DNA from: Catellatospora bangladeshensis
GTDB lineage: Bacteria; Actinomycetota; Actinomycetes; Mycobacteriales; Micromonosporaceae
NCBI RefSeq assembly: GCF_016862575.1
Contig: NZ_BONF01000009.1
Coordinates: forward strand, 186,001 to 250,000
Direction: 5' to 3'
Length of the DNA stretch: 64,000 nt
Part shown: one piece after another, positions 11,458 through 28,262 of the stretch
How the letters are laid out: each line of letters starts with the position of its first letter
Position numbering within the stretch: position 1 is the stretch's first letter
Position numbers and translations under genes: made by a program
The notes under the pieces: model-generated
What the model was told of the DNA's origin: nothing
What the model saw: only the letters and a program-made list of their open reading frames with translations
Database searches by the model: none

Positions 11458-12318
11458 ATGGACGGGTACATGGAGATGGATCACCTGGCCGCCGCCCTGG
11501 CCCTGGCGGGGGTGCCCGCGCGGCGTTCGGCCACGGCGGGGGCCGCGTTCGCGGCGTTCGAGAGCACGCACGGGCAGCCGCTGCCCCGGGCGGTGCGCGA
11601 CTGGTACCTCCTGGACCGCGCCCGGACGGTGCTGGAGCCCGACGGCGCCGACCTCGTGCTCGCGGCGGAGCAGCTGGGCGGCCCGGCGACGTACTGGTGG
11701 CCCGCCGACGGCGACGACTGGCCGCCGGACCTCGAGGAGCAGGAGGAGCGGGAGTTCGACCCGGTCGCGGCGGGCCTGCTGCCCTTCCTCGACGAGAACC
11801 AGGGCGGCTACAGCCTGGCGGTGCGGCTGGACGGGTCGGCCGACCCGCCCGTGCTGATCTCCTGGGACGGTGTCCGCCCGGACGGGTGGAGCGTGCACGC
11901 GGCTTGTTTCTCCGAGTGGGTCTTCACGCGGGTGTGGGATCTGCCGCTGCTGCGGGGCGCGGGCCGGCTGTACGGCACCGTGCCGGACGTGGGGCAGTCG
12001 GAGCTGGCGGTGCTGGCGCGGCGGCTCACGGCTCGCCCGCAGACGGTGTCGGACAGCCCGCTGCCCGGTCCTCCGCAGGTGGGCCACCGTTTCGCCGGTC
12101 CGGGCGACCGGCAGCGGGCGCTGCTGCTGTCGCCGTATGCCGTCGGCGGCACCTGGTCGGTGCTGCTGTGGGCCGCCACGGACGACCTGCTGGTCGACCT
12201 GTGCGGCGTGGTCCGGTCGGCGCTGGCGGCGCCGGTGGGGCTGACCGGCGCCTACCGGCCCGACGAGGTGGCCCGGCGGGCCCTGGAGCGGCTGGCCGCC
12301 GGGGAGGTGACGCGCTGA
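11458..12318 (+). CDS. SMI1/KNR4 (SUKH) family protein
   Basis: A 286-residue protein. The N-terminal region (about residues 28-160) matches the SUKH fold: FESTHGQPLPRAVRDWYLL, then FLDENQGGYSLAVRLDG and the Trp-rich WWPADGDDW block. SUKH proteins often act as immunity proteins against secreted toxins, though many are orphan. The C-terminal 120 residues are less clear (PQVGHRFAGPGDRQRALLLS). Its stop overlaps the next start by one base (TGATG), so the two are coupled. No toxin gene is near. Confidence 0.78.
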   Translation: MDGYMEMDHLAAALALAGVPARRSATAGAAFAAFESTHGQPLPRAVRDWYLLDRARTVLEPDGADLVLAAEQLGGPATYWWPADGDDWPPDLEEQEEREFDPVAAGLLPFLDENQGGYSLAVRLDGSADPPVLISWDGVRPDGWSVHAACFSEWVFTRVWDLPLLRGAGRLYGTVPDVGQSELAVLARRLTARPQTVSDSPLPGPPQVGHRFAGPGDRQRALLLSPYAVGGTWSVLLWAATDDLLVDLCGVVRSALAAPVGLTGAYRPDEVARRALERLAAGEVTR

Positions 12319-13364: not shown

Positions 13365-13451
13365 GGCGCGTCCCTACCCTGGCGCGCCGATCCTTAATCG
13401 CGGCACCGGTTCCGGGCGTAAAACCGCTGGCCCGGCGGCACTGCGGACGGG

Positions 13452-13457
13452 TACAAC
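13452..13457 (+). promoter_or_regulatory. Possible -10 box for the RNA ligase gene
   Basis: TACAAC ends seven bases before the GTG at 13465. The last base departs from TANNNT, so it is weaker than the other leaderless promoters here. Confidence 0.35.
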
Positions 13458-13464
13458 AGTCGGC

Positions 13465-14250
13465 GTGATCGTGAAGTATCCGCGTACGCCGCACCTGGCC
13501 GGCTCGCGCCTGCAGCCCGGCGACGAGGACCTGGCGCAGGTGCCGTTCGCGCAGCTGCGGGGCCGGCACGTGGTCGTCGAGGAGAAGCTGGACGGCGCGA
13601 ACGCGGGCATCAGCTTCACCGCCGGCGGCGAGCTGCGCCTGCAGTCGCGCGGGCACTACCTGACCGGGGGGCCGCGGGAGCGGCAGTTCGCGGTGCTCAA
13701 GTCGTGGGCGGCGACGGTCGCGCCGCTGCTGTGGCCGCGGCTTGGCGAGCGCTACGTCTGCTACGGCGAGTGGATGTACGCCAAGCACACCGTCTTCTAC
13801 GACGCGCTGCCGCACTACTTCTGCGAGTTCGACGTGCTGGACACCGCCACGGGCGCGTTCCTGGACACGCCGTCGCGGCGCCAGCTGCTGGCGGGCCTGC
13901 CGGTGACGAGCGTGCCGGTGCTCGCGGCGGGGCCGTTCACGCGGCTGGAGGAGCTGACGGCGCTGGTCGGGCCGTCGCGGTGCCGTACGCCCGGCTGGCG
14001 CGACGCGCTTGTCGGCGCGGCGGCCGAGGCCGGGGTGGACCCGGAGCGGGCGGCGGCCGAGACGGACCGGGCCGACGAGATGGAGGGCCTCTACCTGAAG
14101 GTGGAGGAGGACGGCCGGGTCGTGGAGCGCTACAAGTGGGTGCGGCACGGGTTCCTGACGGCGGTGCTGGACTCGGGTTCGCACTGGGCGGACCGGCCGA
14201 TCGTCGCCAATCGGCTGGCCGACCCGGAGGTGCTGTATGCGGGCCTTTGA
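13465..14250 (+). CDS. ATP-dependent RNA ligase (Rnl2-like)
   Basis: A 261-residue nucleotidyltransferase that should seal 5'-phosphate and 3'-hydroxyl RNA ends through a lysine-AMP intermediate. All core motifs are visible: motif I EEKLDGANAGI with nucleophile Lys41; a motif Ia-like RLQSRG; motif III YVCYGEWMYAKH; IIIa YFCEFDVLD; motif IV EGLYLKVEEDG; motif V VERYKWVRHGF. The GTG start gives a protein beginning MIVKYPRTPHL, right for small RNA ligases. Its 3' end overlaps the HD-Pnk gene by 14 bases, so ligase and end-healing enzyme are made together. Confidence 0.9.
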   Translation: MIVKYPRTPHLAGSRLQPGDEDLAQVPFAQLRGRHVVVEEKLDGANAGISFTAGGELRLQSRGHYLTGGPRERQFAVLKSWAATVAPLLWPRLGERYVCYGEWMYAKHTVFYDALPHYFCEFDVLDTATGAFLDTPSRRQLLAGLPVTSVPVLAAGPFTRLEELTALVGPSRCRTPGWRDALVGAAAEAGVDPERAAAETDRADEMEGLYLKVEEDGRVVERYKWVRHGFLTAVLDSGSHWADRPIVANRLADPEVLYAGL

Positions 14251-15385
14251 GCGGCTGTGCCCGCAGGGCCCCGGCTGGGCGCTGGACTGGGCGGCGGTCG
14301 AGGCGGAGTTTTCGTGGCTGCGGCGGCTGGCCGGGGTCGAGCAGGATCCGGTGCACCACGCCGAGGGCGACGTGCTGACCCATACCCGGATGGCGGCGCA
14401 GGCCCTGGCGGACCTGCCGCGGTGGCGGGCGCTGCCCCGGCAGCGGCAGGTGCGGCTGTTCGCGGCGGTGCTGCTGCACGACGTGGCCAAGCCGGACTGC
14501 ACCCGGCACGAGGGCGGGCGGGTGACCGCGCACGGGCACTCGCGCCGCGGTGAGCTGCTGGCGCGGCGGATCCTGTGGGAGGCGGGCGCGCCGATCGTAT
14601 GGCGCGAGCACGTCGCGGCGCTGGTGCGCCACCACCAGGTGCCGTTCTGGGCGCTGGAGCGGCCCGACCTGGAGCAGATCGTGCTGCGGGTGTCCCTGAC
14701 GGCCTGTAACGAGGATCTGGCGCTGCTGGCCACGGCCGACATCCTGGGCCGGGTGTGCGCGGACGCCGATGCCGTGCGGGAGAACATCGAGCTGTTCCGG
14801 CAGTACTGCGCCGAGCTGGGGGTGCTGGACGCGCCGTGGCCGTTCGCCTCCGGCCATGCGCGCTTCGAGTACTTCCGCACGCCGGGGCGGGACCCGCGGT
14901 ATGCGGCGTACGACGACACGCGGCTGACGGTGACGGTGCTGTCGGGCCTGCCGGGGGCGGGCAAGGACACGTGGCTGGCCGGTCACCGGCCGGACCTGCC
15001 GGTGGTGAGCCTGGACGCGCTGCGGGCGGAGCTGGGCGTCAGCCCGGCCGGGGATCAGCGGGCGGTGGCCGCGGCGGCGTACGAGCGCTCGCGCGAGCAC
15101 CTGCGGGAGGGCCGGGCGTTCGTGTGGAACGCGACGAACGTGTCGCGCCAGCACCGGGAGATCTGCATCGGGCTGGCGGCGTCCTACGGCGCGCGGGTGG
15201 AGCTGGTGTCGCTGGAGGCGCCCCCGGGGGTGCTGCGGGCCCGCAACGACCGGCGGCAGGCACGGGTCCCGGCGGCGGTGCTGGAGCGGCTGATCGGCAG
15301 GTGGGAGACCCCGGACCTGACCGAGGCGCACACCCTACACCTGGTGGACACGAATGATCGTGCATCTCACGTGATCAGATCGTGA
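14237..15385 (+). CDS. HD-Pnk: HD phosphohydrolase fused to polynucleotide kinase
   Basis: A 382-residue two-domain RNA end-healing enzyme. The N-terminal HD domain (about residues 35-190) has His49 in DVLTHTRMA, the HD pair at 81-82 in LLHDVAKPDC and a further HGHSRRG. The C-terminal kinase domain (about 230-382) has P-loop GLPGAGKDTW, SLDALRAELG, FVWNATNVSRQHRE and the lid RNDRRQARVP. In the studied bacterial HD-Pnk family the HD part removes 2',3'-cyclic or 2'-phosphates and the kinase adds 5'-phosphate, giving exactly the ends a ligase needs. The start lies within the ligase gene. Confidence 0.9.
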   Translation: MRAFERLCPQGPGWALDWAAVEAEFSWLRRLAGVEQDPVHHAEGDVLTHTRMAAQALADLPRWRALPRQRQVRLFAAVLLHDVAKPDCTRHEGGRVTAHGHSRRGELLARRILWEAGAPIVWREHVAALVRHHQVPFWALERPDLEQIVLRVSLTACNEDLALLATADILGRVCADADAVRENIELFRQYCAELGVLDAPWPFASGHARFEYFRTPGRDPRYAAYDDTRLTVTVLSGLPGAGKDTWLAGHRPDLPVVSLDALRAELGVSPAGDQRAVAAAAYERSREHLREGRAFVWNATNVSRQHREICIGLAASYGARVELVSLEAPPGVLRARNDRRQARVPAAVLERLIGRWETPDLTEAHTLHLVDTNDRASHVIRS

Positions 15386-15406: not shown

Positions 15407-16210
15407 GTGATCGAGTCGCGGAGCGTTACCGACGCACTACGCATAGCTGCCGAAAGGCGCCAAACCTGCGGTTTCTTCTTCGACTTCGACGGGACCCTGT
15501 CCGAGATCCGCGACGACCCCACCAGCGTCGTCCCGGTCCCGGGGGTCGTCGAGGCCGTCGCCGAGATCGCCGCACGCGTCCGCACCGTCGCGGTCGTGTC
15601 CGGCCGGCCGGTGGAGTTCCTGCAGCGGCACTTCGGCGCGCAGCCGGTACGCCTCTACGGCCTCTACGGCATGGAGTCCATGGACGCCCACGGCACCCTG
15701 TGGACCGACCCCGAGGTGCTGCCCTGGGTGTCGGCCGTGGAGGAGGTCGTCAAACGCGCGGTGACCGAACTGGACCCCGACGTGCTCGTGGAGGACAAGC
15801 GCCTGTCCGTCGCGCTGCACTACCGCACCGCCCCGCACCTGCGCTCCCAGGTCGAGACCTGGGGCGGGCACCGCGCCGCGGAGTACGGCCTGTCGCCGCT
15901 GCCCGGCCGGATGGTCCTGGAGCTCAAACCGCCGATCCGCCGCGACAAGGGCGGCGTCATCCGCACCGCCACCGGCGACCTGGACTGCGTCTGGTACTTC
16001 GGCGACGACCTGGGCGACCTGCCCGCGCTGACCGCGCTGGCCGACCGGGCCGCGGCCGACCCGTCCTTCCGGGTGTTCCGGGTCGGGGTGTCCAACCCCG
16101 AGACCGGCGAGCAGGTCGCCGCGATGATGGACGTCGTCGTCAACAGCCCCCACGACCTGGTGCCGCTGCTGCGCCGCGCCGCCGACGCCTGCACCCCCAC
16201 CCACCGGTGA
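15407..16210 (+). CDS. otsB: Trehalose-6-phosphate phosphatase
   Basis: A 267-residue HAD-family enzyme that converts trehalose 6-phosphate to trehalose. Motif I is FFDFDGTLSEI at about residues 23-33 with the nucleophile Asp; motif II lies at VAVVSGRPVEF; the acid motif is WYFGDDLGDLPAL. LYGLYGMESMD and RRDKGGV match OtsB cap and motif III regions. The length is normal. No trehalose-6-phosphate synthase gene lies nearby. A hairpin terminator follows. Confidence 0.93.
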   Translation: MIESRSVTDALRIAAERRQTCGFFFDFDGTLSEIRDDPTSVVPVPGVVEAVAEIAARVRTVAVVSGRPVEFLQRHFGAQPVRLYGLYGMESMDAHGTLWTDPEVLPWVSAVEEVVKRAVTELDPDVLVEDKRLSVALHYRTAPHLRSQVETWGGHRAAEYGLSPLPGRMVLELKPPIRRDKGGVIRTATGDLDCVWYFGDDLGDLPALTALADRAAADPSFRVFRVGVSNPETGEQVAAMMDVVVNSPHDLVPLLRRAADACTPTHR

Positions 16211-16213
16211 TCA

Positions 16214-16249
16214 CCGGCGCCGGACGGTGATTGAACCGCCCGGCGCCGG
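16214..16249 (+). terminator. Hairpin terminator after otsB
   Basis: Fifteen-base arms (16214-16228 and 16235-16249) with one mismatch and a six-base loop, right after the otsB stop and 14 bases before the next start. Confidence 0.6.
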
Positions 16250-16263
16250 GGTAAGCGACGATC

Positions 16264-17271
16264 ATGCCGGAATCCGTCATGGTGTTCGCACCGTCCCCGC
16301 AGCTCACCGTCACCGTCGAGCAGGTCGGCGACGACGAGCAGGAGATCCACCTGCACGCGGGCGGGCAGGGCGTCTGGGTCGCCCGCATGATCAAATCCTT
16401 GGGTGTACGCGCCGTGCTGTGCTCCGCCTTCGGCGACGAGACCGGCCGCGTGGTGCGCAACCTCATCCTCGACGAGGGCCTGGAGCTGGGCGCGGTAGAC
16501 GTCTCCGCCCGCAACGGCGCCTACGTGCACGACCGCCGCGACGGGCAGCGCCGCGAGGTCGCCGAGGCCCCCGGGCGGCCGCTGAGCCGCCACGAGCAGG
16601 ACGAGCTCTACAACGTCGCGCTCGCCGAGGGCCTGCGCGCGAAGGTCGCGGTGCTTACGGGGGTCGCCGACCCGCAGATCCTGCCCCCCGACGTGTTCCG
16701 GCGGCTGGCCGGGGACCTGCGCCGCAACGGCACCACGGTGGTCGCGGACCTGTCCGGCGACTACCTGACCGCGGTCCTGGAGGGCGGCGTCGACGTGCTC
16801 AAGGTCTCCCACGAGGAGCTGCTGCGCGACGGCATGGCCCCCGACGACAGCATCCCGTCGCTGGTGTCCGGCCTGTTCAAGCTGCGCGAGGACGGCGCCG
16901 CCAACGTGATCCTCAGCCGCGCCGAGCATCCCGCGTTCGTCCTCATCGACGGCGAGGTCAACCAGGTCGAGCTGCCCCGCCTGGAGCCGGCCGACCACCG
17001 CGGAGCGGGCGACTCGATGACCGCCGGCGTCGCCGCGACACTGGCCCGCGGCGGCGACCTGGCCGAGGCGGTGCGCACCGGCGCCGCCGCGGGCGCCCTC
17101 AACGTGACCCGGCACGGCCTGGGCACCGGCCGCGCCGACGTCATCGCCCAGTTCACCACCCGGGTCGAGCTGACCCCGGTGCCCGGCGGCGGGGCCGTGC
17201 CCCCGCCCGAGCCCGACCGTTCCGGCCACATGTCCCCCGAGCAGCTCGCGGAGAAGGTGACGCACGCATGA
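16264..17271 (+). CDS. PfkB-family sugar kinase
   Basis: A 335-residue ribokinase-fold kinase. The N-terminal signature is HAGGQGVWVARMIKSLGV at about residues 31-48; the C-terminal catalytic signature is HRGAGDSMTAGVAATLARGG with the catalytic Asp. The N-terminal pattern and length resemble 1-phosphofructokinase/tagatose-6-phosphate kinase-like members, but the substrate is open. A tail of about 40 residues (GGGAVPPPEPDRSGHM) extends past the fold. The stop overlaps the surE start (ATGA), so both are co-translated. Confidence 0.88.
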   Translation: MPESVMVFAPSPQLTVTVEQVGDDEQEIHLHAGGQGVWVARMIKSLGVRAVLCSAFGDETGRVVRNLILDEGLELGAVDVSARNGAYVHDRRDGQRREVAEAPGRPLSRHEQDELYNVALAEGLRAKVAVLTGVADPQILPPDVFRRLAGDLRRNGTTVVADLSGDYLTAVLEGGVDVLKVSHEELLRDGMAPDDSIPSLVSGLFKLREDGAANVILSRAEHPAFVLIDGEVNQVELPRLEPADHRGAGDSMTAGVAATLARGGDLAEAVRTGAAAGALNVTRHGLGTGRADVIAQFTTRVELTPVPGGGAVPPPEPDRSGHMSPEQLAEKVTHA

Positions 17272-18068
17272 CCCGGGTCCTGATCACCAACGACGACGGC
17301 ATCGAATCGCCCGGCCTGCACCGCCTGGCCCTGGCCGCACACCAGGGCGGCTTCGACGTGGTGGTGGCCGCCCCGGCCCGTGACTCCAGCGGCGCCAGCG
17401 CCGCCGTCAGCGCCGTCGCGCAGGACGGCCGCATCGTCGTCGAGGAGCGCCACCTGCCCGGCGTGGACGGCGTGCCCGCGTACGCCGTCACCGGCACCCC
17501 GGCGCTGGCCGCGCTGATCGCCACCCGCGGCGCGTTCGGCGACCCGCCCGACGTGGTCCTGTCCGGCATCAACCGGGGCGCCAACGCGGGCCCGGCCGTG
17601 CTGCACTCCGGCACCGTCGGCGCGGCGCTGACCGGCGCCACCTACGGCTGCCACGGCCTGGCCGTGTCGCTGGACCTGGCCGACGGCGACCTGACCGACG
17701 ACGACCGGCACTGGGACACCGCCGCCGCGTACGCCGTGTCGCTGCTGCCCCTGCTGGCGGACCTGCCGCACTCGACCGTGCTGAACCTCAACGTGCCCGA
17801 CCTGCCCGCGGGCAAGGTGCGAGGGCTGTGCCGGGCCCGGTTCGGCCGGTTCGGCCAGGTGCAGATGCGCATCGCCGAGCGCGGCACCGGCTTCGTGCGC
17901 ACCGCGCTGGAGGACACCGGCGCCCGCCTGGAACCCGGCACGGACATGGCGCTGCTCGCCGACGGCTACGCCACGGTGACCCCGCTGCAGCCGCTCGGCG
18001 AGGCCGACGTCGAGCTGCCCGAGCTGCCCGAGCCGGTCAATGCGGCGCGGTCAGCGCCGGCAGCGTGA
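17268..18068 (+). CDS. surE: 5'/3'-nucleotidase SurE
   Basis: A 266-residue metal-dependent nucleoside-monophosphate phosphatase. The metal site is the N-terminal LITNDDGIESPGLHRLA (Asp9-Asp10), with AAPARDSSGAS, then the family blocks VVLSGINRGANAG and VLHSGTVGAALTGATYG, and LNLNVPDLPAGKVRG. It is translationally coupled to the PfkB-type kinase. Its last 32 bases overlap the convergent gene at 18037-18510. Confidence 0.94.
   Translation: MTRVLITNDDGIESPGLHRLALAAHQGGFDVVVAAPARDSSGASAAVSAVAQDGRIVVEERHLPGVDGVPAYAVTGTPALAALIATRGAFGDPPDVVLSGINRGANAGPAVLHSGTVGAALTGATYGCHGLAVSLDLADGDLTDDDRHWDTAAAYAVSLLPLLADLPHSTVLNLNVPDLPAGKVRGLCRARFGRFGQVQMRIAERGTGFVRTALEDTGARLEPGTDMALLADGYATVTPLQPLGEADVELPELPEPVNAARSAPAA

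Positions 18069-26377: not shown

Positions 26378-28262
<1,885 letters not shown>

Follow-up and report, generated by a model that had tools for sequence, protein, structure and literature searches.

The 64,000-nucleotide stretch of Catellatospora bangladeshensis analysed here (the window) carries a gene for an RNA ligase that overlaps a gene for an HD-Pnk, a protein joining an HD phosphohydrolase to a polynucleotide kinase. An earlier note, made from the sequence alone, had read the two as an RNA-repair cassette; rechecking of both reading frames returned its coordinates and its 14-base overlap exactly. The pair comprises the following features.

13465..14250, forward strand: ATP-type RNA ligase (PF09414), core-only as modelled, 261 amino acids, GTG start, TGA stop
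13585..13587, forward strand: codon of the motif I lysine K41 (EKLDG), a lysine in 53 of 54 aligned rows and a gap in the remaining one
14237..14250, forward strand: overlap of the ligase and HD-Pnk genes, 14 nucleotides
14237..15385, forward strand: HD-Pnk, 382 amino acids, N-terminal HD phosphohydrolase and C-terminal P-loop 5'-kinase, ATG start, TGA stop
14237..14845, forward strand: HD domain, residues 1-203
14477..14482, forward strand: codons of the HD signature H81-D82; 37 of the 45 family carriers keep the HD positions
14918..15373, forward strand: polynucleotide kinase domain, residues 228-379, with the P-loop GLPGAGKD at 14945-14968
13452..13457, forward strand: TACAAC, a -10-like hexamer 7 nucleotides 5' of the GTG start, from the same-genus alignment

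Domains, active sites and folds of the two proteins

The ligase matches a single Pfam domain, RNA_ligase (PF09414, E 7e-35). Residues K41, E102, E207 and K224 are kept in 53, 54, 53 and 53 of the 54 aligned rows, the misses being gaps in two truncated sequences. These columns, among others, place nucleotidyltransferase motifs I, III, IIIa, IV and V in the protein, as the earlier note had seen, and K41 is the motif I lysine expected to carry AMP. The assignment to the Rnl2 type fared less well. In the AlphaFold2 model (mean predicted local distance difference test, pLDDT, 93.0) the nearest folds are RNA ligases, headed by that of Naegleria with T4 Rnl2 ranked lower, and only 28 residues extend beyond the part aligned with the T4 Rnl2 nucleotidyltransferase domain, which leaves no room for the C-terminal domain that follows it in T4 Rnl2. 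On this model, the window ligase is a core-only nucleotidyltransferase with a fold nearest to the Naegleria enzyme.

The HD-Pnk carries in one chain an HD domain (PF01966, E 4e-5) followed by a P-loop kinase domain (AAA_33, PF13671, E 1e-21). The HD residues H41, H49, H81, D82, H101, H132, H133 and D168 are all present, and alignment suggests that they bind metal. Kinase residues K243, D260, R263, R307 and R340 are kept in 56 of 56 HD-Pnk rows. In the AlphaFold2 model (mean pLDDT 95.5) the HD part lies closest to the HD domain of the tRNA CCA-adding enzyme and the kinase part to Clostridium Pnkp, so that Pfam, folds and intact motifs bear out the two domains called from the sequence. Among the matches listed, the closest named relative is from Actinomadura hibisca (69% identity); outside the family, H81 is missing in L085 and L094 and H133 is replaced by glycine in five rows. 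The HD-Pnk gene is single-copy in its own genome (8.83 Mb, 115 contigs).

The genes of the pair overlap by 4-14 nucleotides in all 43 non-remnant loci of the family, with lengths biased towards 14 by a script that took the start nearest to -14. The TACAAC hexamer is retained just 5' of the start in 8 of 11 aligned same-genus loci, the remaining three having a TAG-type sequence, and its position suggests that the ligase transcript may be leaderless. Scans of the pair for sigma-70 consensus promoters and for terminators found nothing.

Pairing, spread and neighbourhood

Profiles A1 and A2 were built from 13 HD-Pnks and 11 ligases, respectively. The first pairing set held 56 full-length HD-Pnk loci: 16 from the family, 8 from plasmids, 1 from a phage and 31 from named genomes. 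The named genomes were scanned with HD and P-loop peptides alone, hence without bias towards ligase neighbours (31 of the best 80 loci passed the full-length filter), whereas the 8 plasmid loci were chosen from 43 records after their ligase matches had been seen and lean towards pairs. A deletion locus (L016) and the truncated L100 and L101, the last with a ligase, were excluded before counting. A same-strand ligase lies upstream in 54 of the 56 loci, at no more than 160 nucleotides in 49 of these. The exceptions are Miltoncostaea (L064), whose plasmid has a ligase match at a distance of 73 kb, and Burkholderia aenigmatica (L095). As a check on the bias, 8 further plasmid records were taken from the 43, one of which (L325) is interrupted by an insertion element. 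Among the 7 full-length loci, a ligase lies upstream in two (L320, L327) and downstream in one (L322), and none was found within 4 kb in four (L321, L323, L324, L326), which rules out that the genes are always adjacent. With both plasmid rounds pooled, a ligase adjoins HD-Pnk in 57 of 63 loci. On viral contigs, a ligase match lies within 4 kb in 10 of 33 two-domain HD-Pnk-like loci; one of the ten is weak and downstream, and some of the 33 are near-copies.

Within the family, 45 of 300 sampled genomes hold an HD-Pnk or its remnant, each with a same-strand ligase or ligase remnant beside it. The pairing is real and beyond chance, and the conserved adjacency anticipated by the earlier note holds among close relatives. 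Carriage follows a different pattern. Every one of the 11 genomes in the window's genus has the gene; among 61 near relatives, near-full matches were found in 6 of 26 other family genomes and in none of 24 from the order's other families; and of 296 genomes sampled across the phylum, only the window's own gave a full-length match (0 of 295 others). The pair is thus patchy rather than general in actinobacteria.

Two loci of this survey stand apart. The Pseudomonas sp. FeN3W plasmid (L322) has the reversed order, HD-Pnk then a longer overlapping gene of the RNA ligase family, near umuD, Y-family polymerase and recX genes. In genome G004, HD-Pnk matches of equal score lie on contigs 34 and 43 (L010, L150), either a real duplication or an assembly artefact.

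The genes around the pair include the following.

11458-12318: gene of the SUKH-1 (SMI1/KNR4) family, three genes 5' of the ligase
15407-18068: trehalose-phosphatase, PfkB-type sugar kinase and SurE-like gene (called by eye), 3' of the pair after a 21-nucleotide gap

Proteins of the SUKH family are often immunity proteins. In the window's genus the trehalose-phosphatase gene adjoins the pair in every genome (11 of 11), and it is absent from that place in the other genera read (L009, L011-L014, L016), so we treat it as a local neighbour and not as a partner. A third partner was likewise rejected: once frames overlapping the pair were set aside, every recurring family of open reading frames among the top 25 clusters was confined to at most 4 of the 45 neighbourhoods, an example being a short-chain-dehydrogenase-like frame in 4 actinobacterial loci. 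The motif CGAACNNNNGTTCG, which we take to be the SOS consensus, has no match with up to two mismatches in the 100 nucleotides at 13365-13464, and SOS control of the pair was set aside. Elsewhere in the window, a perfect SOS-box-like CGAACNNNNGTTCG palindrome occurs at 26826-26839, 22 nucleotides 5' of the putative start (26862) of a long open reading frame that encodes a GMC oxidoreductase in its C-terminal half.

Loss of the HD site and apparent exchange of repair cassettes

Across the 45 family carriers, the eight HD positions are identical to the window's in 37 (window included), decayed in 6 and deleted in 2 remnants. The earlier note had named the loss of HD residues from related alleles as a sign against its reading; such loss does occur, though in a minority. 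In all six decayed loci the kinase and ligase frames are open with intact active sites. Two (G008, G009) belong to the window's genus and decayed by point changes and small deletions, while four (G417, G427, G435, G441) belong to another genus and have lost part of the domain, or most of it, in frame; on a ligase plus kinase tree (42 rows) these decays require two changes, that is, two clades. Between G004 and G009, the ratio of nonsynonymous to synonymous substitution rates (dN/dS) was 0.60 for the HD region, 0.21 for the kinase and 0.31 for the ligase. A general acceleration of the HD region was rejected, as the HD remnant gave 0.027 between G417 and G441 (88 codons) and the intact G000-G004 comparison gave 0.59 for the HD region and 0.57 for the kinase. 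Separately, the deletion remnants G028 (L193) and G563 (L197) extend from ligase sequence into that of HD-Pnk, as though both genes had gone together, and G407 has a split ligase frame.

The same family also encodes single-chain fusions, of which 11 were examined (L151-L161), each joining a Deinococcus-type ligase, a degenerate HD region and a kinase within a single open frame; a twelfth candidate, G414, matched in two short pieces and stands outside the 11. Ligase K/E/E/K and kinase residues are kept in all 11. In an alignment that is loose over the HD region, residues aligned to H41, H101 and D168 are lacking in all 11, the signature histidine is kept in 9 and the whole H-D pair in 4. Since kinase and ligase sites persist both in the six decayed pairs and in these fusions, the conserved core appears to be the 5'-kinase and the ligase, with an HD step that can be lost; judged from these sequences, 3' healing looks dispensable or supplied by other enzymes.

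Candidate enzymes for such a supply are present in the host. Its own genome carries a second complete pair for end repair, a T4-like Rnl1 (PF09511, E 6e-7) with a kinase-HAD Pnkp directly after it, as well as RtcB, Tpt1/KptA and PARG (the last on another contig, G000:C19).

L215:1603-3593 (G000:C8:83102-85092): Rnl1 and kinase-HAD Pnkp pair

All six HD-decayed genomes have HAD-Pnkp, Rnl1 (interrupted in G427) and KptA. HAD-Pnkp is found in 5 of the 11 fusion genomes, KptA in 6, and at least one of them in 10. Neither marker is firmly tied to the losses: HAD-Pnkp is also present in 21 of 37 HD-intact genomes (Fisher p 0.069 against 6 of 6) and fails in 6 of 11 fusions, and KptA, found in 52 of 58 genomes, does not discriminate.

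Genus g246, where the loci read show a cassette of Rnl1, Pnkp and Deinococcus-type ligase, offers a sharper comparison. Of its genomes, 67 have any of the four parts, and in 10 of these HD-Pnk of the window type is matched, in full in 9 and as a remnant in 1. Rnl1 occurs in none of these 10 carriers and HAD-Pnkp in 2, against 48 and 55 of the 57 others (Fisher p ~3e-7 and ~4e-7, uncorrected for descent). Where the ligase lies in these 10 carriers, Pnkp is whole in 2 and missing in 5, and in 3 (L217, L227, L231) only its kinase is left. On these sequences, one RNA-repair cassette looks to have been replaced by another. Mutual exclusion holds in g246 and not as a rule, since in the window's genus both cassettes occur in every one of the 11 genomes. 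As a side observation, in L217, L227, L231 and L234 a T4-type Pnkp reduced to its kinase domain stands beside a Deinococcus-type ligase, so that there the HAD phosphatase was lost too.

Proposed function and comparison with known systems

We favour, with a probability of roughly 0.6, a translationally coupled end-healing and sealing pair that acts on broken RNA, most likely tRNA or another structured RNA. The HD domain would hydrolyse a 2',3'-cyclic or 3'-phosphate in a metal-dependent manner, the P-loop kinase would phosphorylate the 5'-OH end, and K41 of the ligase would take AMP from ATP, pass it to the 5'-phosphate and allow the break to be closed. Because the ligase is a nucleotidyltransferase core only, it probably depends on HD-Pnk for RNA binding, perhaps within a complex, and a ribotoxin or stress nuclease would be the trigger. 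This heal-and-seal logic, already put forward in the earlier note, is supported by domains, motifs, overlap, adjacency and the RNA-ligase, HD and Pnkp folds; the main argument for RNA over DNA is the apparent cassette replacement in g246.

A number of observations weigh against this proposal. DRB0100 (ligase), DRB0099 and DRB0098 (HD and kinase) of Deinococcus radiodurans form a radiation-induced operon (PMC1997131), and DRB0100 is 33% identical to the window ligase. In the same paper DRB0100 is adenylated on K40 yet ligates neither DNA nor RNA, so the complete break-heal-seal system inferred in the earlier note is not supported as written. The paper also suggests that the 3'-phosphatase activity of DRB0098 may come from a contaminant, because the H81A and D82E mutants retained it. 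By its title, Schmier & Shuman 2018 credits the HD-Pnk of D. radiodurans with a part in withstanding ionizing radiation and mitomycin C. Adjacency is looser at a distance, on plasmids and viral contigs; the HD site has decayed beside intact kinase and ligase; the host has other routes for sealing RNA, in Rnl1 with Pnkp and in RtcB; and a ligase tree of 29 rows puts 8 of the 10 g246 carriers in a single clade, so that the replacement may reflect one or two events. The looser adjacency and the DRB0098 mutants lower our confidence slightly, and RNA repair is likely and still unproven because the Deinococcus ligase was adenylated without sealing and its operon responds to radiation.

The radiation link is the basis of a DNA-repair reading, proposed for the Deinococcus operon, in which 3'-phosphate and 5'-OH DNA ends are cleaned after radiation or oxidation and sealing is helped. 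DRB0098 does have 5'-kinase activity and phosphorylates DNA 5'-OH ends (PMC1997131), and the 2018 title points the same way. We nevertheless consider it unlikely: a DRB0100 disruptant is fully radiation-resistant and the purified protein showed no ligase activity (PMC1978522), DRB0100 sealed no DNA in the other study, the sole Pfam domain and best folds of the window ligase are those of RNA ligases, and the pair has neither an SOS-like site in the 100 nucleotides upstream nor, among the top 25 clusters, a neighbour recurring beyond 4 of 45 loci. Quite unlikely, in our estimate, is a 5'-kinase-ligase system in which T4-like Pnkp, or a cyclic phosphodiesterase with Tpt1/KptA (cf. fungal Trl1), prepares the 3' ends and the HD domain is optional even here. 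The HD losses in two clades and in the fusions, together with the HAD-Pnkp, Rnl1 and KptA of the genomes concerned, would suit it; yet the HD domain is presumably used in the window enzyme, because all eight checked positions are intact there, as in 36 other genomes, the H-D pair survives in some fusions, HAD-Pnkp has no significant link with the loss, and KptA does not discriminate. A role outside repair, with the ligase core only adenylating RNA 5' ends and HD-Pnk acting on nucleotides or cyclic-phosphate signals, would agree with the adenylation of DRB0100 and the lack of ligation reported in PMC1997131; we hold it to be highly improbable, as an overlapping 5'-kinase, HD phosphohydrolase and ligase fold, paired in nearly all loci of the first set, fit sealing best.

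Returning to RNA repair by the pair, what these sequences may add to the known system, and what deserves testing, is that 3' healing is the part discarded by evolution. Loss of the 3'-phosphatase site with kinase and ligase retained in several lineages suggests a natural separation-of-function experiment, and the HD-decayed alleles within the genus are ready material for testing the need for 3' healing. A bolder and very unlikely extension holds that the indispensable unit in these actinobacteria is the 5'-kinase with a core-only ligase, the 3'-phosphatase (HD here, HAD in the sister cassette) having been repeatedly discarded. Lineages with neither phosphatase would then seal RNA without removing the 3'-phosphate, for example by a fungal Trl1-like route with the junction 2'-phosphate removed by Tpt1/KptA, and would be a bacterial counterpart of fungal tRNA ligation.

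No experiment on an HD-Pnk/ligase pair in actinobacteria was found in the open-licence literature, and the earlier note likewise knew of none in this type of organism. The kind of system is already known, from the Deinococcus operon and the Runella HD-Pnk, and the window pair is a further instance. The Deinococcus operon (L063) also unites ligase and HD-Pnk, with DRB0100 and DRB0098 33-34% identical to the window proteins. It differs in that DRB0100 has 210 amino acids against 261 and in that a PARG/macro gene separates the two, whereas the window genes overlap directly; Deinococcus taeanensis (L327) has both genes with no PARG between. DRB0099 is a PARG that strips ADP-ribose from RNA, and the operon has been discussed in terms of RNA and/or DNA repair (PMC11833690).

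The domain order of the window HD-Pnk is the same as that of the Runella type: Munir & Shuman (J Bacteriol 2017) reportedly described a Runella slithyformis HD-Pnk with an N-terminal HD phosphoesterase and a C-terminal 5'-OH kinase, and homologues are said to share an operon frequently with the gene of a putative ATP-dependent ligase. Three Bacteroidota HD-Pnks (L078-L080, Runella not among them) pair with a shorter ligase of 236 amino acids, 20-22% identical. The match to the Naegleria gruberi RNA ligase, which we take to be of the Rnl5 family, begins at Naegleria residue 140, leaving that enzyme an extra N-terminal part, with 18% identity to the window ligase. T4-type Rnl1 and kinase-HAD Pnkp heal and seal tRNA with an HAD rather than an HD phosphatase and an Rnl1 rather than the window type of ligase; the window pair matches neither the HAD_PNKP nor the Rnl1 Pfam family, both of which are present elsewhere in the genome. 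Pnkp1-Rnl-Hen1 is also a bacterial kinase and ligase complex that repairs ribotoxin-cut RNA, though made of three proteins including Hen1 (PMC4411300); a scan of 7 window genes, not extended genome-wide, gave no Hen1-like Pfam match. Beside these systems, the window documents an actinobacterial genome in which an overlapping HD-Pnk/ligase pair occurs together with T4-like Rnl1/Pnkp and RtcB.
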